A DNA stretch of 64,000 bases, taken from positions 434,001 through 498,000 of the forward strand of contig NZ_JAKGCS010000006.1 of assembly GCF_021556395.1 (NCBI RefSeq), in the 5' to 3' direction. Each line of letters begins with the position of its first letter. Position 1 is the stretch's first letter. Of this stretch, positions 5,292 to 48,843 are shown in pieces. Source of the stretch: Acuticoccus kalidii (GTDB lineage: Bacteria > Pseudomonadota > Alphaproteobacteria > Rhizobiales > Amorphaceae). The notes beneath the pieces were generated by a model that was given only the letters and a program-made list of their open reading frames with translations, searched no databases and had not been told where the DNA came from. A program made the translations under genes and the position numbers.

Positions 5292-6230
5292 ATGAAGACA
5301 TCCGTCTGTGTGCTCACCGCCGTCGGTATCGCATTGGGCGCGGGAAGCGCGTCCGCGGAGACCATTCGTCTGATGACCGGCCCGCAGGGCGGCTCTTGGT
5401 ATCCGCTCGGCGGCGCGATCCAGAATATCGTCGAAAATGGGGTCGACGGCGTGACGGTGCAGGTGCTGCCCGGCGCAGGCATCGCCAACGTGAAGGCGGT
5501 GCAGGCCGGCAAGGCGCAACTCGGCTTCGCGAATTCCGTGTCGACCGTGGACGCGATCAACGGCAACCCGCCCTTCGACGAGAAGGCCGACGACGTGTGC
5601 AACGTCGCGACGCTCTATCCGCAATATTTCCAGGTCATCGCGCTTGCCGATTCGGGCATCGAGACGCCCGCCGACCTCGGTGACAAGGCCGCCGCCGTCC
5701 AGCCCAAGGGCAACACCGGCGAGGCGATCACGCAGCATCTGTTGACCGCCGAGGGCCTCAGCTACGAGCAGCTTCCCCGCGTCAATCACGGCTCCTATTC
5801 CGACGCCGTGTCGCTGATGAAGGACGGCAATGCCGACTTCTTCACCCTCGGCACCACGGTGCCGTCCGGCGCGGTGATGGATCTTGCCAGCGCGCGCGAC
5901 ATCAAGGTCGTCCCGATCCCGGACGAGCTGCTCGCCAAGATGCAGGAGCTGAACGCCGGCTATAAGCGGATCATGATCAAGGCCGGCTCTTATCCGGGAC
6001 AGGACGAAGACGTGCCGACCATCGGTTACGCGACGCACATCATCGCGAGCTGCTCGCTCGATCCGGATGTCGTCTACAACGTCCTGACGGCGATCAACGA
6101 CAATATCGGCGACCTCACGGCGATCGCGAAGGCGATCGAGGGTTCGACGCCGACCGAGATGGGCCGCGATATCGGCGTGCCGATGCACGAGGGCGCCAAG
6201 CGCTTCTATAGCGAACACGGCGCGAGCTGA
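5292..6230 (+). CDS. TAXI-family TRAP transporter solute-binding protein
   Basis: A 312-aa periplasmic binding protein. It has a clean Sec signal peptide cut after ASA near residue 22, followed by the TAXI-family opening TIRLMTGPQGGSWYPLGGAI. The segment LPGAGIANVKAVQAGKAQLGFANS is typical of the TRAP-TAXI ligand fold. The start at 5292 is preceded by GGGAGG. It is 56 bp upstream of the fused permease, so the two form one uptake system for an organic acid or amino acid-like ligand of unknown identity. Three cysteines lie in the mature protein. Confidence 0.93.
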   Translation: MKTSVCVLTAVGIALGAGSASAETIRLMTGPQGGSWYPLGGAIQNIVENGVDGVTVQVLPGAGIANVKAVQAGKAQLGFANSVSTVDAINGNPPFDEKADDVCNVATLYPQYFQVIALADSGIETPADLGDKAAAVQPKGNTGEAITQHLLTAEGLSYEQLPRVNHGSYSDAVSLMKDGNADFFTLGTTVPSGAVMDLASARDIKVVPIPDELLAKMQELNAGYKRIMIKAGSYPGQDEDVPTIGYATHIIASCSLDPDVVYNVLTAINDNIGDLTAIAKAIEGSTPTEMGRDIGVPMHEGAKRFYSEHGAS

Positions 6231-22405: not shown

Positions 22406-24010
22406 TCAGACGCGCTCCGCTTGCAGCAGCCACTGCTTCAGGAGAGTGGCAACCCGGTTGGAATCGTAGTCCACGACCTGCTCCAAGCGTTTCTGTGGCG
22501 TTTTGTGCATGTTGGCCTTGAGCTGCTCGATGAGGTTCACCTCGTCGGTGACCGCCTCCTGCTCGTCGGTGTCCTGCGTGGCGATCAGCTCGGCCATCGT
22601 GTTCTCGGCGGGGCGCGCCGTGAGCGCGCGGATCGCCGGGCGCAATCCGAACCAGATGAGAAGGATCGCGACGATGAGGACGATCGTGGCGTTGATGATC
22701 GTCCCGAGCTGGCGGTTGAGGGTCGCGAGGAAGCCCTCCGAAGGCAGCGCCTCGAGATGGTCGCGCTCGGGCGCGAACGGAACGGTCGCGACCTTGAGCT
22801 CGTCGCCGCGCTCCTCCGAGAAGCCCGCCGCCGTGCGCACCAACGCCCCGATATCGGCGAGCTGCGCGTCAACGGCCGGCCCGTTTTCGGCATCGGCGTT
22901 CGCCTGGAGGCGGTCCTGGTTGACGAGGACCGCGATCGAGAGGTGCTCGATGGCGAACCCGTCGCGCACACGCTCCACGACGCGGGTCGAGATCTCGTAA
23001 TTGGTGAGCTCTTCGCGGCGGTTCGAATCCTCGGTGGAATCGGCGCCGCCGGCGCCGGGGAGCTCTTCCTGCGGAATGTTCTGCTGCACCGTGACCGGCT
23101 GGTCGAGATTGCGGTTGCGCGCCGATTCCTCTTCCTTGACGGTCCGCACCGACCGTTCGACGCGCGAGGCCGGATCGAAGATCGTCTCGTTCTCGCGCGT
23201 CTTGTCGATGTTGAGCCGCGAGGTCACGCTGACGGTGAAATTCTGCACCCCGAGAAACGGCACGAGGGTTTTGCGGATCTGATCTTCCAACGTGTTGTTG
23301 GTGTCCGACTGGAGGCGGGCGAGTTTGCCGGTCGACTGGTTGGCCGGATCGCCGCCCGAGGCGAGAACGGTGCCGCGCGTGTCGAGGACGGTGACGGCGC
23401 CGATCTCCATCGCCGGGATCGCGCCGGCGACGAGGTGCCGGATCGCGTCGGCCGCTCCGTCGCCCTTCGGCCCGTCGGTGCGGATGACGACCGAGGCGGA
23501 TGCGGGTTGGTTTTGCCGGCGAAAGGAGCCTCTGTCCGACAGGACGAGATGCACGCGCGCGGCGCTGATGCCTTGCATCTCCTGGATCGTGCGGGCGAGC
23601 TCGCCTTCGAGCGCCCGGACCCGTGTCACCTCCTGCATGAAGGAGGTGAGGCCGAACGAACTCATGTCGTCGAAGAGCTCGTAACCGGCATTGGGGCTGC
23701 TCGGCAGGCCCTGTTCGGCCAGCATCATCCGTGCCGGGGCCGTGTCCGCGTGATTGACGAGGACGGCGTCGCCGTCCGGCGAGACGTCGAAGTCGATGTT
23801 CGCGTCGGCGAGGACGTTGCCGATCCGGGTCACGTCCTCCCGGTCGAGCCCGGTATAGAGGACTTCCCGTTGGGGTTGGGCGAGGTAGCTCGCGCCGACG
23901 CCGACGACGACGAGCGTCGCGATGGCGATGGCGGCGAGTGCGCTGAGGCGCCTCGGCCCCAATTCCCGTAAGTTGGTGAGCACCCGCTCGACGTGTTCGC
24001 GGCCGGTCAT
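22406..24010 (-). CDS. fliF: Flagellar MS-ring protein FliF
   Basis: A 534-aa protein with an N-terminal membrane helix (about residues 24-45), the periplasmic ring-building motifs (REVLYTGLDREDVTRIGNVL and the RALEGELARTIQEMQGISAARVHLVL segment with SDRGSFRR), a large periplasmic loop, and a second helix near 445-465 before a cytoplasmic tail that binds FliG. It forms the base on which rotor and export gate assemble. It is the first gene of the minus-strand set fliF-fliH-like-motB-motC-fliK. Confidence 0.96.
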   Translation of the reverse strand: MTGREHVERVLTNLRELGPRRLSALAAIAIATLVVVGVGASYLAQPQREVLYTGLDREDVTRIGNVLADANIDFDVSPDGDAVLVNHADTAPARMMLAEQGLPSSPNAGYELFDDMSSFGLTSFMQEVTRVRALEGELARTIQEMQGISAARVHLVLSDRGSFRRQNQPASASVVIRTDGPKGDGAADAIRHLVAGAIPAMEIGAVTVLDTRGTVLASGGDPANQSTGKLARLQSDTNNTLEDQIRKTLVPFLGVQNFTVSVTSRLNIDKTRENETIFDPASRVERSVRTVKEEESARNRNLDQPVTVQQNIPQEELPGAGGADSTEDSNRREELTNYEISTRVVERVRDGFAIEHLSIAVLVNQDRLQANADAENGPAVDAQLADIGALVRTAAGFSEERGDELKVATVPFAPERDHLEALPSEGFLATLNRQLGTIINATIVLIVAILLIWFGLRPAIRALTARPAENTMAELIATQDTDEQEAVTDEVNLIEQLKANMHKTPQKRLEQVVDYDSNRVATLLKQWLLQAERV

Positions 24011-24400
24011 CGGCCCTCCTCATGGCGATACGTTTGGTCGGTCGAAGACAGGGGCGGCGCGCGCTCATTGCGCGGACACGAGATGCCCCTCGCCCCGCCA
24101 AACTCGCTGAACTTCCTGTCCCGTGACTTGCGACTTCCGGCTTTCGCTCGCTGCGTTGCGGGCCGGTGCCGATGGATCACGGCCGCCTTGGCCCACGGCC
24201 GCGGCGCTGACGTGTGGACGAACGAGAAAGCGGCGGGCCGGAGAACCGACCCGCCGTTGAGTTGGGCCGCGCGCGGAGAAGCGGCGCGACCTGTGGGAGA
24301 GGGAGAGGCGCCGTCCGAGACGGCGCGCTGAGAGTGTGGCCGCTGGCGGCGTCTCACGCCCCCGGCGCGGCGGGGACGTGAGAACTCAGCGGGCTAGGCC
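24011..24400. other. Intergenic region between fliF and flaA
   Basis: A 390-bp region holding the fliF promoter and, further right, the probable flaA terminator (24231-24256). No small gene with a ribosome site was seen. Confidence 0.5.
24231..24256 (-). terminator. Probable flaA terminator
   Basis: On the minus strand CGGCGGGTCGG-TTCT-CCGGCCCGCCG forms an 11-bp stem with one wobble pair and is followed by CTTTCTCG. It lies about 145 bp beyond the flaA stop codon. Confidence 0.6.
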
Positions 24401-25348
24401 CTAGCGAAAGAGCGCGAGGACGTTCTGGGCCGAAGCGTTGGCGATGGAGAGGGATTCGACCGAAAGCTGCTGCTGCGTCTGCAAGGCGCGCAGACGGGTC
24501 GATTCCTCTTCCATGTTGGCATCGACCAGTGCGCCGACCGCCCGGTCGTTGGCATCCATCAAGGCCGATACGAACGATTGCTGCGATTCCGCGCGGGCGA
24601 GGTTCACACCCACCGTGTTCTGCGCCGAGATCACCTCGACCAGCGCCGTGTCGACGAGGGTGATGAGCTGATCGAGACGGGTCAGATCGTCGGCCGAATC
24701 GGTCAGTGCGCTGATGTCGATATTGACGATCGTCGCGGTGGTCGCCGCGAGTGCGCCCGCGGCGGCGACAGTTCGCTCCTGGTCGAGAATGCCGGTCTTG
24801 GAAGCGGCCGTCGTGTGGGCGTCGGTCAGCACGATGGTGGAGATGTCGAGATCGATGGTGGAAATCGAGATCCCGGCGGACGAGCGCTCGAACGAAGCGA
24901 CCACGGATTTCGTCGCGTTCCAGTCCGCCGCGGAGGTGTCGACCGCGAGGAAATTCTGTTCGTTGATGACGGATGCAGACGCCTTGTTCTGCATGTCCGT
25001 CTGGATGCCGTCGATCTGGGTCTGCACGTTCGTGCGATCGACGCCCGGCTGGCGCGCCGCGACCATGAGCTCCTTCATCTGCTGAAGGTTCTCGCGGGTG
25101 GTGTCGAGGCCGTTATAGACCACGTCCAGCGTGGAGTGGCCGAGTGCGATGGCGTCCCTCACGGCGCCGAGGGCGCCATTGTCCGAATCCGTCGTCGTCG
25201 CGATGGCCCAATAGGCGGCGCTGTCGGACGCCTGTGCGATCCGCAGGCCGGTCGAAACGCGATTGTTGGTCGTGTTGAGGCTCTGGTTGATCTGGTTGAG
25301 CGTTTGCAGCGCAACCATTGCCGCAGTGTTGGTCAGAAGGCTCGTCAT
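24401..25348 (-). CDS. flaA: Flagellin
   Basis: A 315-aa flagellin with both conserved polymerisation ends: MTSLLTNTAAMVALQTLNQIN with RVSTGLRIAQASDSAAYWAIA at the N-terminus, and ANMEEESTRLRALQTQQQL to NVLALFR at the C-terminus. The central D2/D3 region is short, as in rhizobial flagellins. ATG 25348 follows GGGGAAAG. It is a monocistronic gene with its own probable terminator and shares an upstream two-block element with the other two flagellin-type genes. The export chaperone is not adjacent; FlaF and FlbT in the plus-strand operon probably govern its synthesis. Confidence 0.95.
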   Translation of the reverse strand: MTSLLTNTAAMVALQTLNQINQSLNTTNNRVSTGLRIAQASDSAAYWAIATTTDSDNGALGAVRDAIALGHSTLDVVYNGLDTTRENLQQMKELMVAARQPGVDRTNVQTQIDGIQTDMQNKASASVINEQNFLAVDTSAADWNATKSVVASFERSSAGISISTIDLDISTIVLTDAHTTAASKTGILDQERTVAAAGALAATTATIVNIDISALTDSADDLTRLDQLITLVDTALVEVISAQNTVGVNLARAESQQSFVSALMDANDRAVGALVDANMEEESTRLRALQTQQQLSVESLSIANASAQNVLALFR

Positions 25349-25725
25349 CGTCTTTCCCCTGATGTTTACTGAAAGACATGCCGACGGGCGGCAGGGCAGG
25401 ACGGCGTCATGCCTTTGGTTCTCGGGGTGCTTCCTGCATCCTCACGAGGCGGGCACTGGCCCGACCAACCTGCGATGAAGGGCATATAAGGACTTCGGCT
25501 GGCGCGGGGCTTGCCAGCTCCCGACCGCGATCGAGAAAGAAGCGATCGGTCGCGCGATTCGCCTTGCCGGACCGATCGGGCCAACCCTTGGACGGGCGGG
25601 GGCCGCGGCCCGCTTCGCGGCGCCGCGGGCCGGGCGACCGCGCGGCGTCGCCGACGGCACGGAAACCCGCCGCGTTCTCCACCGTTGACGGCGGGGCGAA
25701 AGAAGCCTCGTTCCGCACGGCGACG
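25349..25725. other. Region between the flagellin-like gene and flaA
   Basis: A 377-bp interval containing the flaA promoter region with the shared flagellin element (25371-25413). Further right, GGCCCGC/GCGGGCC (25607-25613 with 25625-25631) forms a GC-rich stem that could end transcription of the flagellin-like gene; it has no T-run. Confidence 0.45.
25371..25413 (-). promoter_or_regulatory. Shared flagellin upstream element, flaA copy
   Basis: In the direction of transcription GGCATGACGCC (25413-25403) is followed after 19 nt by CGGCATGTCTTTC (through 25371), ending 22 bp before the start codon. The same two blocks with near-identical spacing precede the other two flagellin-type genes. 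It may be a promoter, an activator site or part of the 5' leader. Confidence 0.6.
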
Positions 25726-26622
25726 TCATCCCCCGGTGACTGGCTCGCCGCTCGCCCCCATGCCGCCCGAGGTTGGGGCCGTCGTGGTCGCCACGGTTCC
25801 GCCGCCCATTGCGGCCTCGCCCGATCCGCTCGACCCGTTTGCGATCGGCCGCTGGGCCGTGGACAGCTGCTCCTGCGCCTGGATCGCGAGGAGGACCGCG
25901 GCAGTGTTCTCCAGATTCTTCTCGATGAGAGACGGCTCGGGAAAGCGGGTAGCATCGATGAGAGCGGCGATAAACGCCCCTTGCGACTTCGCCCGCGCGA
26001 CCATCGTCGTGACGAGATCCGACTGGGTGATGATGTCGACGAGGGCCGCGTCCACGATGCCGAGATATTCGGCGAGGGTGGTGAGGTCGGCGACGGAATC
26101 GGTGAGGGCCGAAATATCGATCCTGTCGACGGCGCTGGCCGTCGATCCCGCCGTGCGGATCTTCGAGACGATTTCCCTCGTCGCCTCGAGGCCCGCCGTG
26201 ACGGGCGCGGCCGTATCGCGGCGTCCGCCTTCGATCGCCGGTCCCTGGATGCCCCTCCCGGTTGCGAGGATGGCGCGAAGATCGCCGAGTTTCGCAGCGA
26301 TCGCGCTCTGCGCGGCGGCGCGGTCCGTCCCACGCACCTGCGCGCTCGCGAGGATGTCTCGGATCTTGCTGAGGTCCGTGCGTGCGGCGCCGAGTGTCGC
26401 AGCGGCGACCTCCATCCGGACGCTGCCGCGCACCAGCGCATCGTGCACCGAGTGCAGCGTCGTCATCTCGGCCTGGGCGCTGCCGGGGATCGTCCAATAG
26501 GACGTGTTGGTTCGGGTCTCGCCGGGCCGCTGGCCGGGCGAGACGCGGTTGATCATGAGATCGGTGTTGATGGCGCTCAGTGGCTGAGCGGCCGTGATCG
26601 AAACGTTGGTCAGGGAGTTCAT
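25726..26622 (-). CDS. Divergent flagellin-like protein
   Basis: A 298-aa protein that aligns end to end with the two flagellins but is eroded at their most conserved sites. The N-terminus reads INRVSPGQRPGETRTNTSYWTIP where FlaA has RVSTGLRIAQASDSAAYWAIA. The shared core DISALTDSVADLT and a C-terminal KSQGAFIAALIDA keep register with FlaA. The last 35 residues are a Gly/Ser/Thr tail (GSSGSGEAAMGGG), and the terminal NVLALFR needed for filament packing is absent. ATG 26622 follows AAGGAA. It could be a minor or secreted flagellin, or a decaying paralogue; the intact frame and the conserved upstream element favour function. Confidence 0.7.
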   Translation of the reverse strand: MNSLTNVSITAAQPLSAINTDLMINRVSPGQRPGETRTNTSYWTIPGSAQAEMTTLHSVHDALVRGSVRMEVAAATLGAARTDLSKIRDILASAQVRGTDRAAAQSAIAAKLGDLRAILATGRGIQGPAIEGGRRDTAAPVTAGLEATREIVSKIRTAGSTASAVDRIDISALTDSVADLTTLAEYLGIVDAALVDIITQSDLVTTMVARAKSQGAFIAALIDATRFPEPSLIEKNLENTAAVLLAIQAQEQLSTAQRPIANGSSGSGEAAMGGGTVATTTAPTSGGMGASGEPVTGG

Positions 26623-26650
26623 CACCGTCGTTCCTTGCTCAGTGAATGGC

Positions 26651-26690
26651 GAAACGTGCCGAAGCCGGCGATGCATCCGGGCGTCATGCC
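26651..26690 (-). promoter_or_regulatory. Shared flagellin upstream element, flagellin-like gene copy
   Basis: In transcription order GGCATGACGCCC (from 26690), then an 18-nt gap, then CGGCACGTTTC (to 26651), ending 28 bp before the start codon. It matches the blocks before flaA and flaB with one or two base changes. Confidence 0.6.
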
Positions 26691-26841
26691 ATTTGCGATC
26701 GCCGTCCGGTCGGATCGCGTGCCGTGCATCCACCCATGATCATGCGGGCCAGGCTTGGCCGAGGCTGGAACGGGCCGAAAAAGCGGGGTGCGCTGCCGCT
26801 ATAGCAGACACGCCCGCAAAAACCGGGCGGCGCGAGCCCGC

Positions 26842-26865
26842 CGTGGGGGCGTTCGCGCCCCCACG
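26842..26865 (-). terminator. Perfect 10-bp hairpin at the stop codon of the 62-aa gene
   Basis: CGTGGGGGCG (26842-26851) pairs with CGCCCCCACG (26856-26865) around a four-base loop (TTCG on the plus strand). It abuts the TGA of the small gene. No T-tract follows on the minus strand, so it may be a transcript-end stabiliser. Confidence 0.55.
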
Positions 26866-27054
26866 TCAGCGCAGACAGGCGAGGAACACGTCGAGCCGTG
26901 GGCGTTTCTCGAGCATTGCCGCCAGCGTCTCCTGATGTCGCGACAGGAGGAGGTCGAGCGAATCGGGGCGCAATGGGCGCCGCGTGGGCGAGGGGGCCTT
27001 CGCCGCCGAGGCGGGGTCGCCGACCGTCGCCGAAAGCGGGTGGAGTTTCGTCAT
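26866..27054 (-). CDS. Small protein of unknown function in the flagellin block
   Basis: A 62-aa frame starting [14 protein letters not shown] and ending in [12 protein letters not shown], with a predicted helix over [22 protein letters not shown] do not recognise a family. Evidence for a real gene is a good AAAGGA ribosome site nine bases before the ATG and a perfect hairpin directly at the stop codon. It is basic and soluble, with no signal peptide. Its place between a flagellin-like gene and another unknown gene suggests a flagellin-linked role, which is inference only. Confidence 0.45.
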
Positions 27055-27181
27055 CAGTGGATTCCTTTACGCAACACTTGAGGAGATACGCGGCCTCCCG
27101 CACGCCGAGATGCCGCCGGAAATCAAGCGAGGGCGCGGCGCGGATCGTCCCGCGCCGCGGTGGCGGTCGTCCGCGGGCCGT

Positions 27182-27733
27182 TCAGCCGGCGGGGGGCGCC
27201 ACTGTTCGATCGGACGCGCCAGGCGCGTCGGCGACAGCATTCTCGATGATTGCCGAAAGGGATCGCACGGTGCGCTGCGGAGCGGTGAGCACCGCGCCTC
27301 GCCTCGGTGGATCGTCCGGAGCGGGGCGCGTCACGCGCCGGGCGGCGGCGGCGCTGAGAGCCTGTCCCGTGAAGCGGCGCGGGGGATGCGCTGGGATCCG
27401 GCGCGGATCGTAGGCGACGCCATGGAGGAAGATGACGTTGCCGCGTGGCCCAGGCGGTTCCTGCGAGGGCGTCCGGCGCGCCGGCGTTCGGTTCGCCGCG
27501 TCGTTCGCGGTGTCGTGACGGAGCCGGTCGACGACCGCGCCATAGTCGCAATCGAAGCCGTCGGATCGATCCGGAGCGGCCGCCATCCAGTCGCCCGAGG
27601 ACGGGAAACGGACGGTGGATTGGGGGAAGGGGAGAAGAAGCTGCTCGTTCTCCGCCGGGGTGTGCGAGCCCGATGGGCGGTTCCGCAATTCGTCGAAGGT
27701 GTCGTCGAACTGATCGTGCGACATCGTCGTCAT
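27182..27733 (-). CDS. Hypothetical protein in the flagellin block
   Basis: A 183-aa frame starting MTTMSHDQFDDTFDELRN, set by a strong GGAGGT site five bases upstream. The N-terminal 60 residues are acidic with a PFPQSTVRFPSSGDW patch; the remainder is Arg/Pro/Ala-rich with a short hydrophobic NVIFLHGVAYDP and ends with a helix LSAIIENAVADAP. No known domain is recognised and no membrane segment is seen. The gene lies between the flagellin flaB and the 62-aa gene, on the same strand as both. Confidence 0.5.
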   Translation of the reverse strand: MTTMSHDQFDDTFDELRNRPSGSHTPAENEQLLLPFPQSTVRFPSSGDWMAAAPDRSDGFDCDYGAVVDRLRHDTANDAANRTPARRTPSQEPPGPRGNVIFLHGVAYDPRRIPAHPPRRFTGQALSAAAARRVTRPAPDDPPRRGAVLTAPQRTVRSLSAIIENAVADAPGASDRTVAPPAG

Positions 27734-27928
27734 TTCAACCTCCACGCTACGCATTGTTGAAGGCGGTCCGGTCCCCGATCCGTCGGTCGCGTCCGATTGC
27801 GATCCGGCGGCGGCGAGGTGTCTCGAACCTCGATCCTACAATGCGCAAAGAGGCCGATTGGTCTCCGATAGAATGAACAATATCAGTGTGTTAGAAGGAA
27901 TTTCAGGTTTGCTGAAATAGGGCCGACG

Positions 27929-27955
27929 AAAAAAGGGCCGCCCGAAGGCGACCCT
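27929..27955 (-). terminator. Rho-independent terminator of flaB
   Basis: On the minus strand AGGGTCGCC-TTCG-GGCGGCCCT is a 9-bp stem with one wobble pair and a UUCG tetraloop, immediately followed by six T residues. It begins about 64 bp after the flaB stop codon. Confidence 0.92.
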
Positions 27956-28018
27956 CAGATCGGGGTAGGGCCAAGGGCCCCGTCATGGGCCGATCGCGGT
28001 GGCGACCGGCCTCACGGA

Positions 28019-28954
28019 TTAGCGAAAGAGCGCAAGGACGTTCTGGGCCGAGGCATTGGCGATGGAGAGGGATTCGACCGAGAGCTGCTGCTGCGTCTGC
28101 AAGGCGCGCAGACGGGTCGATTCCTCTTCCATGTTGGCATCGACCAGCGCGCCGACGGCCCGATCGTTCGCATCGATCAGGGCGCCGATGAAGGTCTCCT
28201 GCGAATCCACACGGGCGAGGATCACACCGACGGTGTTCGATGCCGAGATCACGTCGACGAGCGCAGCGTCCACGATCTCGATATAGTCGTCGAGCTCCTG
28301 AAGGTCGGCCGCCGAGTCGGTGAGCGAGGAGATCACGGTGCCGTTGAGGCCGGTGATCGACTCGGTCGTGCCGTTGGTGCCCGTGCGGTCGATATCGAGA
28401 ATACCGGCCGGCGTGCCGCCCGCCGGGTCGATCAGCTTGATGTTGTCGATGTCGAGCGTGATGGTGGAGATCGAGATGCCGGAGGCCGAACGCTCGAACG
28501 ATGCGACGACCTGCTTGCTGGCGTTGTAACCGGCCGCGCCGGAATCGACCGAGAGGAAGTTCTGCTCGTTGATCACCGAGGCCGACGCCTTGTTCTGCAT
28601 GTCGGTGATGAGGCCGGTGATCTGCGTCTGGATGTTGGCCCGGTCGACGCCCGGCTGACGCGCAGCGACGAGGAGCTCCTTCATCTGCTGAAGGCTCTCG
28701 CGGGTGGAATCGAGACCGTTATAGACGACGTCCATGGTCGACTTGCCGAGCGCGAGAGCGTCCCGCACCGTCGACAACGCGCCGTTGTCCGATTTCGTCG
28801 TCGCCGCGATGGCCCAATAGGCCGCGCTGTCGGAGGCTTGCGCGATCCGCAGGCCCGTCGACACGCGATTGTTGGTCTCGTTCAGACCGCGATTGATGTC
28901 CGTCAGGGTCTGAAGGGCGACCATCGCGGCGGTGTTGGTGAGAAGGCTCGTCAT
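28019..28954 (-). CDS. flaB: Flagellin (second copy)
   Basis: A 311-aa flagellin nearly identical to FlaA at both ends (RVSTGLRIAQASDSAAYWAI; the last 40 residues to NVLALFR) but diverged in the middle, where it has DPAGGTPAGILDIDRTGTNG in place of a different variable loop. This indicates an older duplication kept by conversion or selection at the filament-core domains. ATG 28954 follows AGGAA, and a classic terminator lies downstream. Two intact flagellins suggest a mixed filament, as in many rhizobia. Confidence 0.95.
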   Translation of the reverse strand: MTSLLTNTAAMVALQTLTDINRGLNETNNRVSTGLRIAQASDSAAYWAIAATTKSDNGALSTVRDALALGKSTMDVVYNGLDSTRESLQQMKELLVAARQPGVDRANIQTQITGLITDMQNKASASVINEQNFLSVDSGAAGYNASKQVVASFERSASGISISTITLDIDNIKLIDPAGGTPAGILDIDRTGTNGTTESITGLNGTVISSLTDSAADLQELDDYIEIVDAALVDVISASNTVGVILARVDSQETFIGALIDANDRAVGALVDANMEEESTRLRALQTQQQLSVESLSIANASAQNVLALFR

Positions 28955-28985
28955 CGTAGTTCCTCTACACGAAGGCTTTCGGGGG

Positions 28986-29026
28986 GAAACATGCCGATGA
29001 AAGGCTCCGCAGTCGGGCATCATGCC
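28986..29026 (-). promoter_or_regulatory. Shared flagellin upstream element, flaB copy
   Basis: In transcription order GGCATGATGCCC (from 29026), a 19-nt gap, then CGGCATGTTTC (to 28986), ending 31 bp before the start codon. It corresponds block for block to the elements upstream of flaA and the flagellin-like gene. Confidence 0.6.
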
Positions 29027-29141
29027 GTTGGCGCGCCGCATGTGGCGGCGTGCGATCAACCTGCGCTGCGGCCTTATGTGGAGCGCGATGCTGGAGCGGG
29101 CCTGTCCTTCTCACGACGGCCCGCCGGCGGACGAGACGCCG

Positions 29142-29927
29142 TCAGGTGAATGAGCGCACGAGCGATCCGATCAAGAGGTTCCACCCGTCGATCAAGACGA
29201 AAAAGAGGATCTTGAACGGGAGGGCGATCACGGTGGGGGGCATCATCATCATGCCCATCGACATGATGAGTGTCGCGACGATGAGGTCGATCACGAGAAA
29301 CGGCAACAGGATCAGAAAGCCGATCTCGAACCCGCGCCGCAATTCGGAAATCATGAAGGCGGGAATCAACGTGCGCAGTTCGACCGCCTCCGGCTCCGCC
29401 GGTGCGGTGCCGGCAAGGTCGGCGAAGAGGGCGAGATCGCGCGGCCGGACCTCGCGCAACATGAACTCGCGGAACGGCGTGGTGACGCGCGTATAGGCCT
29501 CCTCCTCGGTGATCTCGTTGCGGGTGAGGGGCAGGATGCCGTCCTTCCAGGCCGCGTCGAAGGTCGGCCCCATGACGTAGAAGGTCATGAACAGGGCGAG
29601 CGAGATCATGACGATATTGGCCGGCGTCGTCTGGAGGCCCATGCCGGCGCGCAGGAAGGACAGCGCGACGATCATTCGGGTGAAGCTCGTCACCATGATG
29701 AGAAGGCCGGGGGCGAGCGACAAGATCGTGATCAGCGCGACGAACTGGACGATCCGCGCCGAAGCCGAGCCCGACCCCTCCGGCAGGAGCGCACCGAGAT
29801 CGAGGACCGGCGTCTGCCCTTGCGCGAACGCGGCGTGCGGGAGAAAGACGAGTGCCGTCATGGCGAGGAGGGCGGCGATCGGCGCCCTCCGAGGGAGGCT
29901 CATCCTCCGCTCGATCGGATCTGTCAT
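29142..29927 (-). CDS. fliP: Flagellar export gate protein FliP
   Basis: A 261-aa protein with an N-terminal cleavable signal-like segment (ending AAFAQG), then the FliP core: IVQFVALITILSLAPGLLIMVTSFTRM, LRAGMGLQTTPANIVMISLALF and the C-terminal FEIGFLILLPFLVIDLIVATLIMSMGMMM. With FliQ, FliR, FlhA and FlhB it builds the type III export gate in the MS-ring. ATG overlaps the fliL stop by 4 bp. It is the last gene of the long minus-strand operon that begins at motA. Confidence 0.97.
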   Translation of the reverse strand: MTDPIERRMSLPRRAPIAALLAMTALVFLPHAAFAQGQTPVLDLGALLPEGSGSASARIVQFVALITILSLAPGLLIMVTSFTRMIVALSFLRAGMGLQTTPANIVMISLALFMTFYVMGPTFDAAWKDGILPLTRNEITEEEAYTRVTTPFREFMLREVRPRDLALFADLAGTAPAEPEAVELRTLIPAFMISELRRGFEIGFLILLPFLVIDLIVATLIMSMGMMMMPPTVIALPFKILFFVLIDGWNLLIGSLVRSFT

Positions 29928-30433
29928 TGGAGGACCATCGTCTCGATGATGAGCTCCTTCACCGTCCCGGAGGAGGCGATGCGAGCCCGTTCGTTGAGAT
30001 CGTCACGAAGGTGATTGAAGGCGCTCGCGCCTTGCAGATCGGAGAGGGAGACGGTGCGCAGGAAGGCGAGCACGCTCTCGCCGAGCACGGCCTTCATCCG
30101 TTCGACGTCCTCGACCGCGTCCCGGTCGAACACCATCGCCGTGTCGAGACGGATCCAGATATTCTGCGGGCTCGCGAGGTTCGCAAGCACGGGGTCGATC
30201 TGCGCGACGGCGCTCGTCTCGTTCCAGGCGAGGGCGTTCTCGTCCTTGACCGGGGCCTCGTTCGCCTTCTTGGTCGCAAGGGTCGCGATCGTGTCGACCT
30301 GTTTGATGGCGAAGAAGCCACCCGCGCCGGCGCCGAGGACCGTGATCCCGAGAACGGTAAGGATGAGGCCGAGAAGGTTGCCTTTGGGCTTCGTGTCGTC
30401 GGTGATTTGCGGATCTTCGATTTCGTCATCCAT
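29924..30433 (-). CDS. fliL: Flagellar basal-body protein FliL
   Basis: A 169-aa single-pass membrane protein: an acidic cytoplasmic N-terminus, one helix at about residues 18-40 (LLGLILTVLGITVLGAGAGGFF), and a periplasmic domain ending in FNHLRDDLNERARIASSGTVKELIIETMV, the FliL C-terminal helix. FliL rings surround the stator and support torque. It overlaps flgH by 1 bp (TGATG) and fliP by 4 bp. A second, more distant FliL-like protein is encoded at 54003-54563. Confidence 0.93.
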   Translation of the reverse strand: MDDEIEDPQITDDTKPKGNLLGLILTVLGITVLGAGAGGFFAIKQVDTIATLATKKANEAPVKDENALAWNETSAVAQIDPVLANLASPQNIWIRLDTAMVFDRDAVEDVERMKAVLGESVLAFLRTVSLSDLQGASAFNHLRDDLNERARIASSGTVKELIIETMVLQ

Positions 30434-46815: not shown

Positions 46816-47852
46816 TGCAAACGAGCTATATTTCGACCGCGGCTTTGCGCAATGCGCCGCGCGCGTCCGTTCAGCGTCTGCAAAGCGAACTCGTTGATCG
46901 AACGACGGAAATCGCCACGCAGCGCCATGCCGATGTCGGCCTGACGCTCGGGAGCGGTACCGGGCGGACCGTCTCGACGCGCATGGATCTCGCCCTGCTC
47001 GAGACGCTGATGACGTCGAACGCCGGAGCGACGGCGCGCCTGTCGCAAACGCAGACGGCGCTGGCCGATCTCGAAACCGTCGCCTCCGAGATGTTGAGCG
47101 CGCTCGTCGCCCTGCCACCCGGGGTGCAGTCCGCGAACACGATGGAGGTGCAGGCCGTCTCCTCGCTCGACCGGCTCGCCGATCGCTTGAACGCCTCGGA
47201 TGGCGGCTCGTATCTGTTCGGCGGTCTCAACTCCACGGCGCGGCCGTTCAATCGCTATGACAATGGTCCACGGGCGGCGGTGGAAGCGGCGTTCCTCGCC
47301 GAGTTCGGCGTCGCGGTCGGCAATCCGGCTTCGGCCGCGATCACGCCGGCGGCGATGGAGACCTTCCTCGACAACGCCTTCGCGAACCTCTTCGACGATC
47401 CGGCCTGGACCACGGATTGGTCGGCCGCATCGTCGACCAACATGATGAGCCGCATCGCCCCGTCCGAGCGCACCGAGACGTCGACGAACGCCAACGAGGC
47501 GGCGATGCGCGATCTCGCGCGGGGCTTCACGATGATCGCCGGGCTCGGATTCACCGCGCTCAGCCAGGAGACCCGCAACGCCATCGTCTCCGAAGCGCGT
47601 ATCGTGCTCGGCACGGCGATCACCGAGGTGCTGGCGTTGAAGGGCGAACTCGGCTTTGCCGAGAATGCGATCGCCAAAGCCGACGGGCGGATGAGTCTCG
47701 CCCGAGACATCCTGTCCCTGAAAATCGCCGATGCCGAAGGCGCCGACCCCGCCGAGGCCAAGGTCCGGATCGATCTTCTCACGACGCAGATCGAGATGAG
47801 CTACGCGCTCACCAACCAGCTCTCGCGCCTCAGTATTCTCAACTACGCGTAA
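46815..47852 (+). CDS. flgL: Hook-filament junction protein FlgL (HAP3)
   Basis: A 345-aa flagellin-related protein (LQSELVDRTTEIATQRHADVGLTLG near the start, LTTQIEMSYALTNQLSRLSILNYA at the end), with the SYLFGGLNSTARPF segment diagnostic of FlgL. It sits between FlgK and the filament. ATG overlaps the flgK stop (TGATG); the flaF start follows 11 bp after its stop. Confidence 0.93.
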   Translation: MQTSYISTAALRNAPRASVQRLQSELVDRTTEIATQRHADVGLTLGSGTGRTVSTRMDLALLETLMTSNAGATARLSQTQTALADLETVASEMLSALVALPPGVQSANTMEVQAVSSLDRLADRLNASDGGSYLFGGLNSTARPFNRYDNGPRAAVEAAFLAEFGVAVGNPASAAITPAAMETFLDNAFANLFDDPAWTTDWSAASSTNMMSRIAPSERTETSTNANEAAMRDLARGFTMIAGLGFTALSQETRNAIVSEARIVLGTAITEVLALKGELGFAENAIAKADGRMSLARDILSLKIADAEGADPAEAKVRIDLLTTQIEMSYALTNQLSRLSILNYA

Positions 47853-47863
47853 GGAGTCCGATT

Positions 47864-48214
47864 TTGCCGGCTGACAGCTATGTGGACGTGCGGGACGGGG
47901 CGAGCGATGTCCGGCGAGAGCAGGAGCGCATCGCCTTCGACCAAGGATTGACGCTGATGGAACAAGCAAGAGCCACTCCCCAATCGCCTGCGCTCGCTCT
48001 GGAAGCGTCCCGCTATATGCAAACGCTATGGGGCCACCTCATTCGCGATCTCAGCCACCCGGCGAACGATCTGTCGGACGAACTGAAGGGAAATCTCATC
48101 TCGATCGGCCTGTGGACCATCAAGGAGACCGACGCGATCATCGCGGGCAAGGGCGAGAATTGGGGCCCGCTCATCGAGATCAATCGGACGATCCGCGACG
48201 GGATCGCGGCATGA
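47864..48214 (+). CDS. flaF: Flagellin biosynthesis regulator FlaF
   Basis: A 116-aa protein of the FlaF family: REQERIAFDQGLTLMEQA, the ALEASRYMQTLWGHLIRDL helix and LKGNLISIGLWTIKETDAI are its hallmarks. In alphaproteobacteria FlaF promotes flagellin synthesis or export and antagonises FlbT. The proposed start is TTG 47864, seven bases after an AAGGAG site; no ATG is available before the conserved region. It overlaps flbT by 4 bp. Confidence 0.93.
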   Translation: MPADSYVDVRDGASDVRREQERIAFDQGLTLMEQARATPQSPALALEASRYMQTLWGHLIRDLSHPANDLSDELKGNLISIGLWTIKETDAIIAGKGENWGPLIEINRTIRDGIAA

Positions 48215-48843
48215 GCCCGGCATCCCGCCGGCCACGCCGGAACGAGGCCGACAACCGGCCGCCCGGCGTTCGGCCGATGCACCTGTCGTTGCGGGCAGGG
48301 GAACGGCTCTTCCTGAATGGCGCGGTGGTTCGAGTGGATCGCAAGGTGACGCTCGAGCTCCTCAACGACGCGACGTTCCTCCTCGAAAACCACGTCCTCC
48401 AGGTGGAGGATACGACGACGCCGCTCCGGCAGCTTTATTTCGCGGTCCAGGCGATGCTGATGGATCCGCAGAATGCCGAGGCGAGCCGCCGTCTCTTCGA
48501 CGCGATGGCGACCGATGTGCGCCGCGTCCTCGACACCCCGCTTCTATCCGAGGGCGTGGCCGAGGCGGCGGGGCAGGTGGCGGCCGAGCGGCCCTTCCAT
48601 GCCTTGCGGACGCTGCGAAATCTCTTCGCGGAGGAGGCTGCGCTCCTCGCGCTTCCGCCCGAGGCGGCCGACCCGCGCGGGCGGGACGATCGGCGGAGCC
48701 GCCGTGCCGCGTCGGAGACCGATGCGACACCGTGCGCAATCGAGCCGCCGCGCGACGACGAGGCGGCGACCGAGAACGTGCCGGGCGCCAAACGCGTCGT
48801 CGATCCGCCGAGACGAGGCCGGCCGAACCATCTTCTGAATTGA
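48211..48843 (+). CDS. flbT: Flagellin mRNA regulator FlbT
   Basis: A 210-aa protein whose core MHLSLRAGERLFLNGAVVRVD with VTLELLNDATFLLENHVLQ and TTPLRQLYFAVQ is diagnostic of FlbT, a post-transcriptional repressor that binds flagellin mRNA leaders. ATG 48211 overlaps the flaF stop (ATGA); an internal ATG at 48277 matches the usual family N-terminus, so the true start could be there. The C-terminal 60 residues are an Arg/Asp/Glu-rich extension beyond the usual length of about 140-150 aa. Confidence 0.93.
   Translation: MSPASRRPRRNEADNRPPGVRPMHLSLRAGERLFLNGAVVRVDRKVTLELLNDATFLLENHVLQVEDTTTPLRQLYFAVQAMLMDPQNAEASRRLFDAMATDVRRVLDTPLLSEGVAEAAGQVAAERPFHALRTLRNLFAEEAALLALPPEAADPRGRDDRRSRRAASETDATPCAIEPPRDDEAATENVPGAKRVVDPPRRGRPNHLLN

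Follow-up and report, generated by a model that had tools for sequence, protein, structure and literature searches.

A 64,000-nt stretch of the Acuticoccus kalidii genome (contig NZ_JAKGCS010000006.1, positions 434,001 to 498,000 of the forward strand; hereafter the window, numbered from its first nucleotide) carries on its minus strand two flagellin genes, flaA and flaB, with a degenerate flagellin paralogue between them, and on its plus strand a frame with a FlbT domain and an adjoining frame with a FlaF domain (Table 1). The first-pass annotation of this DNA had singled out two short sequences in front of all three flagellin-type genes, GGCATGAYGCC (block 1) and CGGCAYGTYT (block 2), and had proposed that they form either an unusual flagellin promoter or a target within the leader of the mRNA. 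Comparison between families indicates that the two blocks are very probably parts of one structured 5′-untranslated RNA of about 110 nt at the head of flagellin mRNAs, the last helix of which holds the Shine-Dalgarno region.

Both blocks are present without a single mismatch before each of the three genes, with spacers of 19, 18 and 19 nt between them for flaA, the paralogue and flaB, respectively, within the range first noted (18-19 nt). The distance from the end of block 2 to the ATG, first given as 22-31 bp, has to be corrected to 25, 29 and 32 nt in the same order. Taken singly, block 1 is common (91 matches with up to two mismatches compared to 64 expected), block 2 occurs at expectation (20 matches with up to one mismatch, 20 expected), and block 2 has one more exact match at 6008-6017. 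The joint pattern GGCAYGAYGCC-N16-21-CGGCAYGTYT had three matches in the 5.59-Mb assembly (94.9% complete), each before one of the three flagellin-type genes described here, and its reversed control had none. The surroundings of the blocks, which had been called not conserved, are so in part: a third common stretch, CAGGTTG, lies upstream of flaA (25466-25472) and flaB (29057-29063), and pairing rather than identity appears to constrain the sequence that surrounds the blocks.

The predicted leader RNA comprises four helices, P1 to P4 in 5′ to 3′ order. P1 starts at CAGGUUGG and ends in a CCAA arm that adjoins P2; its inner pairs vary by lineage (UUGGAUC/GAUCCAA, UUGAGCAU/AUGCUCAA, UUGGGC/GCCCAA and UUGAACGG/CCGUUCAA), and the UUGGU/ACCAA pairing of flaA recurs in the close leader L037:11485. 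P2 is block 1 itself, a 3-bp hairpin GGC-AUGAN-GCC with arms that read GGC/GCC, GAC/GUC, GGG/CCC, GGA/UCC or AGC/GCU among relatives. P3 has the form NCCGG...CCGGN, its 3′ arm being the CGGCA of block 2, and is longer in other families (for example AUACCGG-UGAAAG-CCCGGUAU). The 5′ arm of P4 starts in the GUYU of block 2; the Shine-Dalgarno region lies in the 3′ arm, a few nucleotides ahead of the start codon (GUCUUUC/GAAAGAC, UGUCCC/GGGACA, UGUUUCG/CGAAACA and GUGC/GCAC among relatives); in flaA, P4 encloses this region directly before the ATG at 25348-25346. The loops of P3 and P4 vary in length and the arms still pair. AGG, GGA or GAG occurs within the last 14 nt of 162 of the 172 distinct element copies, a raw count given without a chance rate.

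Leaders were collected by searching 41 genomes, the window's own included, from which 20 stretches were fetched. These yielded 47 flagellin-type upstream regions after removal of one duplicate, and 41 of them were taken; five leaders were then set aside as unclear, L011_3303 was kept out of alignment A2, and the genus leader L042_13919 was likewise kept out of alignment A3. Two covariance models were used: R1 rests on 26 leaders of one genus, with 3′ ends trimmed by eye, and R2 on 96 matches across many families (alignment A5). A further alignment, A6, holds 89 matches in 80 loci selected by protein similarity to flagellin; it is not fully independent of A5, as at least L171, L175 and L196 are the same places as L110, L049 and L140.

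Among the 26 genus leaders, 74.8% of the cells were paired, 5 of 16 pairs had changed on both sides, and covariation was 0.139 compared to 0.081 after shuffling. Shuffles and slid versions of the structure served as controls for A5 and A6. In A5, 80.4% of the cells were paired and 11 of 16 pairs had changed on both sides, with a covariation of 0.202 (0.110 shuffled, none of 500 shuffles as high, slid versions 0.05-0.13). The corresponding figures for A6 were 86.0%, 9 of 16 pairs and 0.184 (0.108 shuffled, again none of 500 as high, slid versions 0.03-0.09). P4 qualifies as a covarying hairpin with the Shine-Dalgarno region in its 3′ arm, as 6 of its 8 pairs had changed on both sides in the 96 matches and 5 of 8 in the 89. 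P1 lies outside both models and was examined by swapping 3′ arms between leaders: stems of at least 6 bp formed in 78 of 175 leaders, whereas 200 rounds of swapping gave 22 on average and 31 at most, in a test that counts related leaders separately. Thirty of the 175 leaders were stemless, 29 of them without a TTG in range. Because a plain best-stem search gave a slight contrast for P1 (6.6 compared to 5.4 bp on average), the swap test was used instead. By these sequence comparisons all four helices are supported by compensatory changes. The comparisons show that the element is conserved, where it lies and, through compensatory change between families, how it pairs; it is presumably transcribed.

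The scan of related genomes that had been suggested for the motif, run here with the covariance models, found the element before flagellins in many relatives of the order. Searches over more than 40 genomes used strict filters, and the resulting counts are lower bounds: in the order-level set, R1 matched at least 72 of 397 genomes (E≤0.01) and R2 at least 105 of 397 (E≤1e-4). Bradyrhizobium, Roseibium, Pannonibacter, Pleomorphomonas, Hyphomicrobium, Ensifer and Sinorhizobium are among the named carriers, and by these names the order would be the Hyphomicrobiales. A flagellin frame was present, at any offset, in all 30 loci returned for R1 matches. Within a hand-chosen subset of 46 weaker R1 matches, 32 precede a flagellin frame and 14 do not; we judged 12 of the latter to be chance matches, the remaining two lying before a chemoreceptor (L123) and before a short reading whose start resembles that of a flagellin (L150:518). 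When loci were selected by protein, 65 of 80 flagellin loci carried the element directly upstream, and in 60 of them it ends 3-16 positions ahead of the flagellin match (86 of the 89 matches entered this count, the three weakest being left out). Two of the 15 loci without an assigned element have too little upstream sequence, and several contain degraded versions recognisable by eye.

The element tracks the type of flagellin. Among 28 genomes with a flaB match, all 14 with a close relative (E<1e-30) carry the element at E≤1e-3, compared to none of the 14 with distant relatives only. Of the four flagellin genes in a Sinorhizobium meliloti record, the first reaches 41.5 bits, "flagellin D" 26.8 and "flagellin B" 18.4; the 11.7 bits of the fourth are not significant. 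A flagellin gene on the Methylorubrum extorquens plasmid pCMU02 is preceded by tandem copies (L244:2336-2409 and 2415-2498; 32.9 and 20.3 bits).

Some copies precede chemoreceptor genes. Twenty-one R2 matches were chosen by hand, mostly because they stood isolated from the main clusters or scored low, and are no random sample; 11 lie before flagellins, nine before methyl-accepting chemotaxis proteins (L258, L259, L260, L261, L265, L266, L268, L269 and L271, the last being the same place as L123) and one before neither. Pfam confirmed eight of the nine chemoreceptors, two of which contain a protoglobin domain (L266 and L269); the ninth, L268, is identical at 541 of 574 positions to a confirmed chemoreceptor, and its NCBIfam chemoreceptor matches fall below the cut-offs. 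A CheW frame follows the receptor at L265 and a frame with an Hpt domain follows at L271, an arrangement that resembles the beginning of a chemotaxis operon. At four chemoreceptor loci 132-234 nt separate the element from the start of the receptor frame, so that the link between element and receptor is looser than that between element and flagellin. The match before neither, L264:442-555 (37.4 bits), stands before a short frame that is neither flagellin nor chemoreceptor as far as it was looked at.

We propose that a promoter upstream of CAGGUUGG would start transcription separately, and that P4 would hide the ribosome site, keeping translation low unless P4 opens. A protein that recognises P2 and P3, most likely FlbT, acting by itself or together with FlaF and a partner flagellin, might then set P4 open or closed; by way of P4, filament synthesis, and in some genomes that of a chemoreceptor, would be tied to flagellar assembly. 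To this account as a whole, a folded leader that acts as a translational operator by hiding the ribosome site and is most likely read by FlbT, we assign a probability of about 0.8. That FlbT in particular is the reader has, in our estimate, slightly better than even odds.

The sole computed tie between the RNA and FlbT is co-occurrence: among 61 relatives, FlbT (Pfam PF07378) is encoded by every one of the 17 genomes that carry the element (E≤1e-3), compared to 24 of the 44 others. The leader may instead be structured but have its P4 controlled by a different RNA-binding protein or a small RNA, or else by a metabolite or by temperature. In favour of this, the element follows the type of flagellin rather than FlbT, and some of its copies precede chemoreceptor genes. 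Chemoreceptor genes are not known to be targets of FlbT. We place the likelihood of such a different reader distinctly short of even; two observations speak against it. Genome G043 carries flbT twice, with the element at about 12 kb from one of the two genes, and FlbT is reported to act on flagellin 5′UTRs or on translation in several alphaproteobacteria (PMC4347634, PMC8429497, PMC7591256). It has been proposed to bind the flagellin 5′UTR in Caulobacter and in Brucella with opposite effects, in a review whose passage on FlbT describes its mode of action on flagellin mRNA as unclear (PMC4347634). FlbT is reported to induce LafA1 and LafA2 translationally in Bradyrhizobium diazoefficiens (PMC8429497), and in Caulobacter FlbT and the flagellin paralogue FljJ are reported to co-repress until FljJ is secreted, FlaF being a flagellin secretion chaperone (PMC7591256).

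When 52 non-redundant leaders were anchored on CAGGYTG, they showed a conserved AGC...CAAGC box at about -41 to -27 and TA at -17/-16, with CAYGR conserved directly before CAGG; the same boxes are seen in two genus-level alignments of ten leaders each. This promoter footprint (-41 to -15) emerged only after anchoring on CAGGTTG. Since the promoter-like positions lie upstream of CAGGTTG, both blocks would fall inside the mRNA, transcription being predicted from the alignment to start about 4 nt before CAGG, and P1 starts at CAGGUUGG with promoter-like conservation upstream. The main text of transcription-start papers, searched by term, gave no start for these flagellin genes. A dyad-like box, (A)AGCTTCGCGCAAGCT, occupies about -41 to -27 of CAGGTTG in many loci (25513-25499, minus strand, in the window), before the -10-like TA; it is possibly the site of an activator of the Rem/LafR type, the choice of regulator being a guess.

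Two classes of promoter were tried on the 200 nt upstream of the genes and rejected, as the first reading of the sequence had already concluded. The sigma-54 -24/-12 element is TGGCACG-N4-TTGC and the sigma-28 element TAAA-N15-GCCGATAA; the best matches had 3-4 mismatches in 12 for the former, like random stretches of the window, and 5-6 in 12 for the latter, compared to a background of mostly 4-6. A scan of 24300-29200 for sigma-70-type sites found none. That the blocks instead act as DNA, in an atypical promoter or as the operator for an activator of the Rem/FtcR type, is in our view very unlikely. Block 1 is a near-palindrome, GGCAYG occurs in both blocks about 30 bp apart as in two sites in helical phase, symmetric change in P2 taken by itself could stem from a DNA dyad, and a VisNR-Rem cascade is reported to govern the flagellar genes of several rhizobia (PMC8429497). 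Against this reading, the P3 and P4 loops vary in length while their arms pair, and the arms of P1 and P4 change yet stay complementary. The element moreover overlaps the ribosome site, keeps its distance to the coding start and has promoter-like conservation upstream of it. Of the two original proposals, the RNA in the leader is supported and the promoter is not, on the strength of the covarying arms, the end of the element a few nucleotides short of the coding start, the ribosome site inside it and the promoter-like conservation upstream. It is hardly credible that the similarity is a remnant of flagellin genes having recently been duplicated along with the DNA in front of them. The three genes are paralogues, and multi-flagellin clusters are common in the genus. 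Against a duplication, the three leaders have unlike sequences between the blocks and unlike P4 arms, the two arms of each leader nevertheless pairing with one another (those of flaB imperfectly), copies also precede unrelated chemoreceptor genes, and the same layout stands before flagellins of other families.

Several results nevertheless weigh against the folded leader read by FlbT. Within the genus, one slid version reached a covariation of 0.137, nearly equal to that of the structure, P3 is short with 59% of its cells paired, and RNAalifold predicted P2 alone from the 26 leaders. As A5 and A6 were fitted to the model's structure and the 3′ ends of R1 were trimmed by eye, their figures lean towards the structure. 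Folded singly, the three window leaders were no stabler than shuffles (z from -0.93 to +0.20 over six stretches). The minimum-energy fold of flaA contains P3 and P4 together with a shifted P1 (GGUU with AACC) and mispairs block 1 (GGCA with a downstream UGCC); that of flaB contains P1 and P2, with P3 and P4 absent, and P4 of flaB is itself imperfect, one U being bulged or mismatched. P2 appeared in both stretches folded for the paralogue and P4 only in the shorter (77-nt) one. The case rests on the comparison between families. The six regions not taken from the 47 flagellin-type genes first collected have no recognisable element, and the CAGGYTG anchor is present in only 87 of 175 leaders. Across 385 genomes spread over the class, R2 under strict filters matched nothing linked to a flagellin beyond the order, no Caulobacter leader having been examined by name, although FlbT is reported to act on flagellin leaders in Caulobacter; the matches outside the order came from eight genomes, were weak (E from 6e-4 to 1e-2), and none of the eight loci fetched held a flagellin frame. 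As to the reader, 24 of the 41 genomes that encode FlbT are without the element, and the co-occurrence is equally consistent with the plain presence of flagella. Finally, S. meliloti flaA, flaC and flaD appear with predicted CtrA motifs in a published list (PMC3616915), which implies that transcriptional control of the S. meliloti flagellins is also at work.

Among known RNAs, RF01736 (flg-Rhizobiales) was the first candidate identity and was rejected because its sequence and structure differ. The hairpins of RF01736 contain UUGGGAGA, and behind its best match stands the frame MQNALLIGLSRQM, which we take to be of the FlgF type, whereas the new element precedes flagellins or chemoreceptors. 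At E≤1 RF01736 has two matches in this genome (22.7 and 18.9 bits), both outside the window; at E≤5 it has no match in 24000-30000, and nothing in the window reaches its 55-bit cut-off. Rfam 15 gave no match to the window at the gathering threshold and none to the flagellin loci of nine relatives at E≤3. Both RNAs belong to the same order, RF01736 being described as a cis-regulatory leader RNA of flagellar genes (PMC2864571). In G043, RF01736 lies at C1:6507829, about 21 kb from flbT at C1:6529224, and the new element at C1:2756260 and C1:2757440, near the second flbT at C1:2769604. The FlbT-controlled flagellin gene of Caulobacter is fljK. The FlbT-controlled leaders of Caulobacter, Brucella (fliC) and B. 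diazoefficiens (LafA) are likewise leaders of alphaproteobacterial flagellin mRNAs (PMC4347634, PMC8429497, PMC7591256); here too FlbT is encoded in the same flagellar region and translational control is expected. The element differs from them in having been found before the flagellins of one order only and in having copies before chemoreceptors. CsrA-FliW, for example on Campylobacter flaA, is likewise reported as a case in which an RNA-binding protein acts on the leader of a flagellin mRNA (PMC4894983). No prior description of the element was found in the open-access literature, subscription papers and supplements lying outside that search.

As a four-helix RNA before the flagellins of tractable species (S. 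meliloti, Bradyrhizobium, Methylorubrum), the element offers a concrete candidate for an FlbT site, and it points to a common post-transcriptional control of filament and chemotaxis genes. In its widest form, which we advance tentatively and put a little short of even, a single leader RNA absent from Rfam 15 and read by FlbT or an FlbT-flagellin complex would define a post-transcriptional regulon of the Hyphomicrobiales, comprising flagellins and, in several genomes, a chemoreceptor gene, which in at least two cases stands at the front of chemotaxis genes. Filament and chemotaxis synthesis would then be jointly restrained until hook and basal body were in place, with the paralogue of the window, under this RNA itself, as a conceivable FljJ-like partner.

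Table 1. Genes, leader elements and promoter-like positions in the Acuticoccus kalidii window
Feature	Position	Strand	Basis or remark
Flagellin gene flaA	24401..25348	-	Pfam PF00669 (Flagellin_N), PF00700 (Flagellin_C)
flaA leader RNA core (P2+P3+P4)	25349..25419	-	R1 76.1 bits, R2 63.8 bits; in both models' training sets
flaA P4, GUCUUUC 25377-25371 / GAAAGAC 25356-25350	25350..25377	-	minimum-energy fold, covariation
flaA block 2 = P3 3′ arm (25383-25379, pairs with 25393-25389) and start of P4 5′ arm	25374..25383	-	
flaA block 1 = P2, arms 25413-25411/25405-25403, loop AUGAC	25403..25413	-	covariation
flaA P1, UUGGU 25468-25464 / ACCAA 25419-25415	25415..25468	-	read from sequence
CAGGTTGG, conserved 5′ part of flaA leader	25465..25472	-	predicted start ~4 nt upstream
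flaA promoter-like stretch: AAGC...CCAGC box ~25513-25499, TTATAT 25489-25484	25484..25513	-	conservation footprint; putative function
Degenerate flagellin paralogue	25726..26622	-	NCBIfam NF009329 1.3e-21, below cut-off; no Pfam match
Paralogue leader core	26626..26696	-	R1 50.5 bits, R2 35.9 bits
Paralogue P4, CGUUUC/GGAACG	26656-26651/26634-26629	-	
Paralogue block 2	26652..26661	-	
Paralogue P3	26669-26666/26661-26658	-	
Paralogue block 1	26680..26690	-	
Paralogue P2	26690-26688/26682-26680	-	
Paralogue candidate P1, GCGAUC 26718-26713 / GAUCGC 26700-26695	26695..26718	-	from sequence; absent from predicted fold
Flagellin gene flaB	28019..28954	-	Pfam PF00669, PF00700
flaB leader core	28955..29032	-	R1 61.2 bits, R2 41.5 bits
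flaB P4, GUUUCC/GGAAC	3′ arm 28963-28959	-	
flaB block 2	28987..28996	-	
flaB P3	29005-29003/28995-28993	-	
flaB block 1	29016..29026	-	
flaB P2	29026-29024/29018-29016	-	
flaB P1, GUUG 29060-29057 / CAAC 29030-29027	29027..29060	-	in minimum-energy fold
Open frame with FlaF domain, adjoins flbT	47417..48214	+	Pfam PF07309
FlbT domain in open frame 48028-48843	48277..48648	+	Pfam PF07378; candidate trans-acting reader of the leader

The degenerate paralogue departs from its neighbours in its coding sequence. The NF009329 cut-off is narrowly missed by flaA and flaB too, the score of the paralogue being far below, and a low-complexity tail rich in glycine and threonine replaces the flagellin C-terminus. 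Its leader is without CAGGTTG. The suggestion that this gene is co-regulated with the other two holds at the level of sequence, as the element is kept there, with scores from two models that both include the paralogue. Because it keeps the element with a P4 of its own, the gene is probably still under the same control, and by analogy with FljJ in Caulobacter it could possibly serve as a regulatory partner. A terminator-like hairpin followed by a T run lies at 27956-27933 on the minus strand, shortly past the coding end of flaB.

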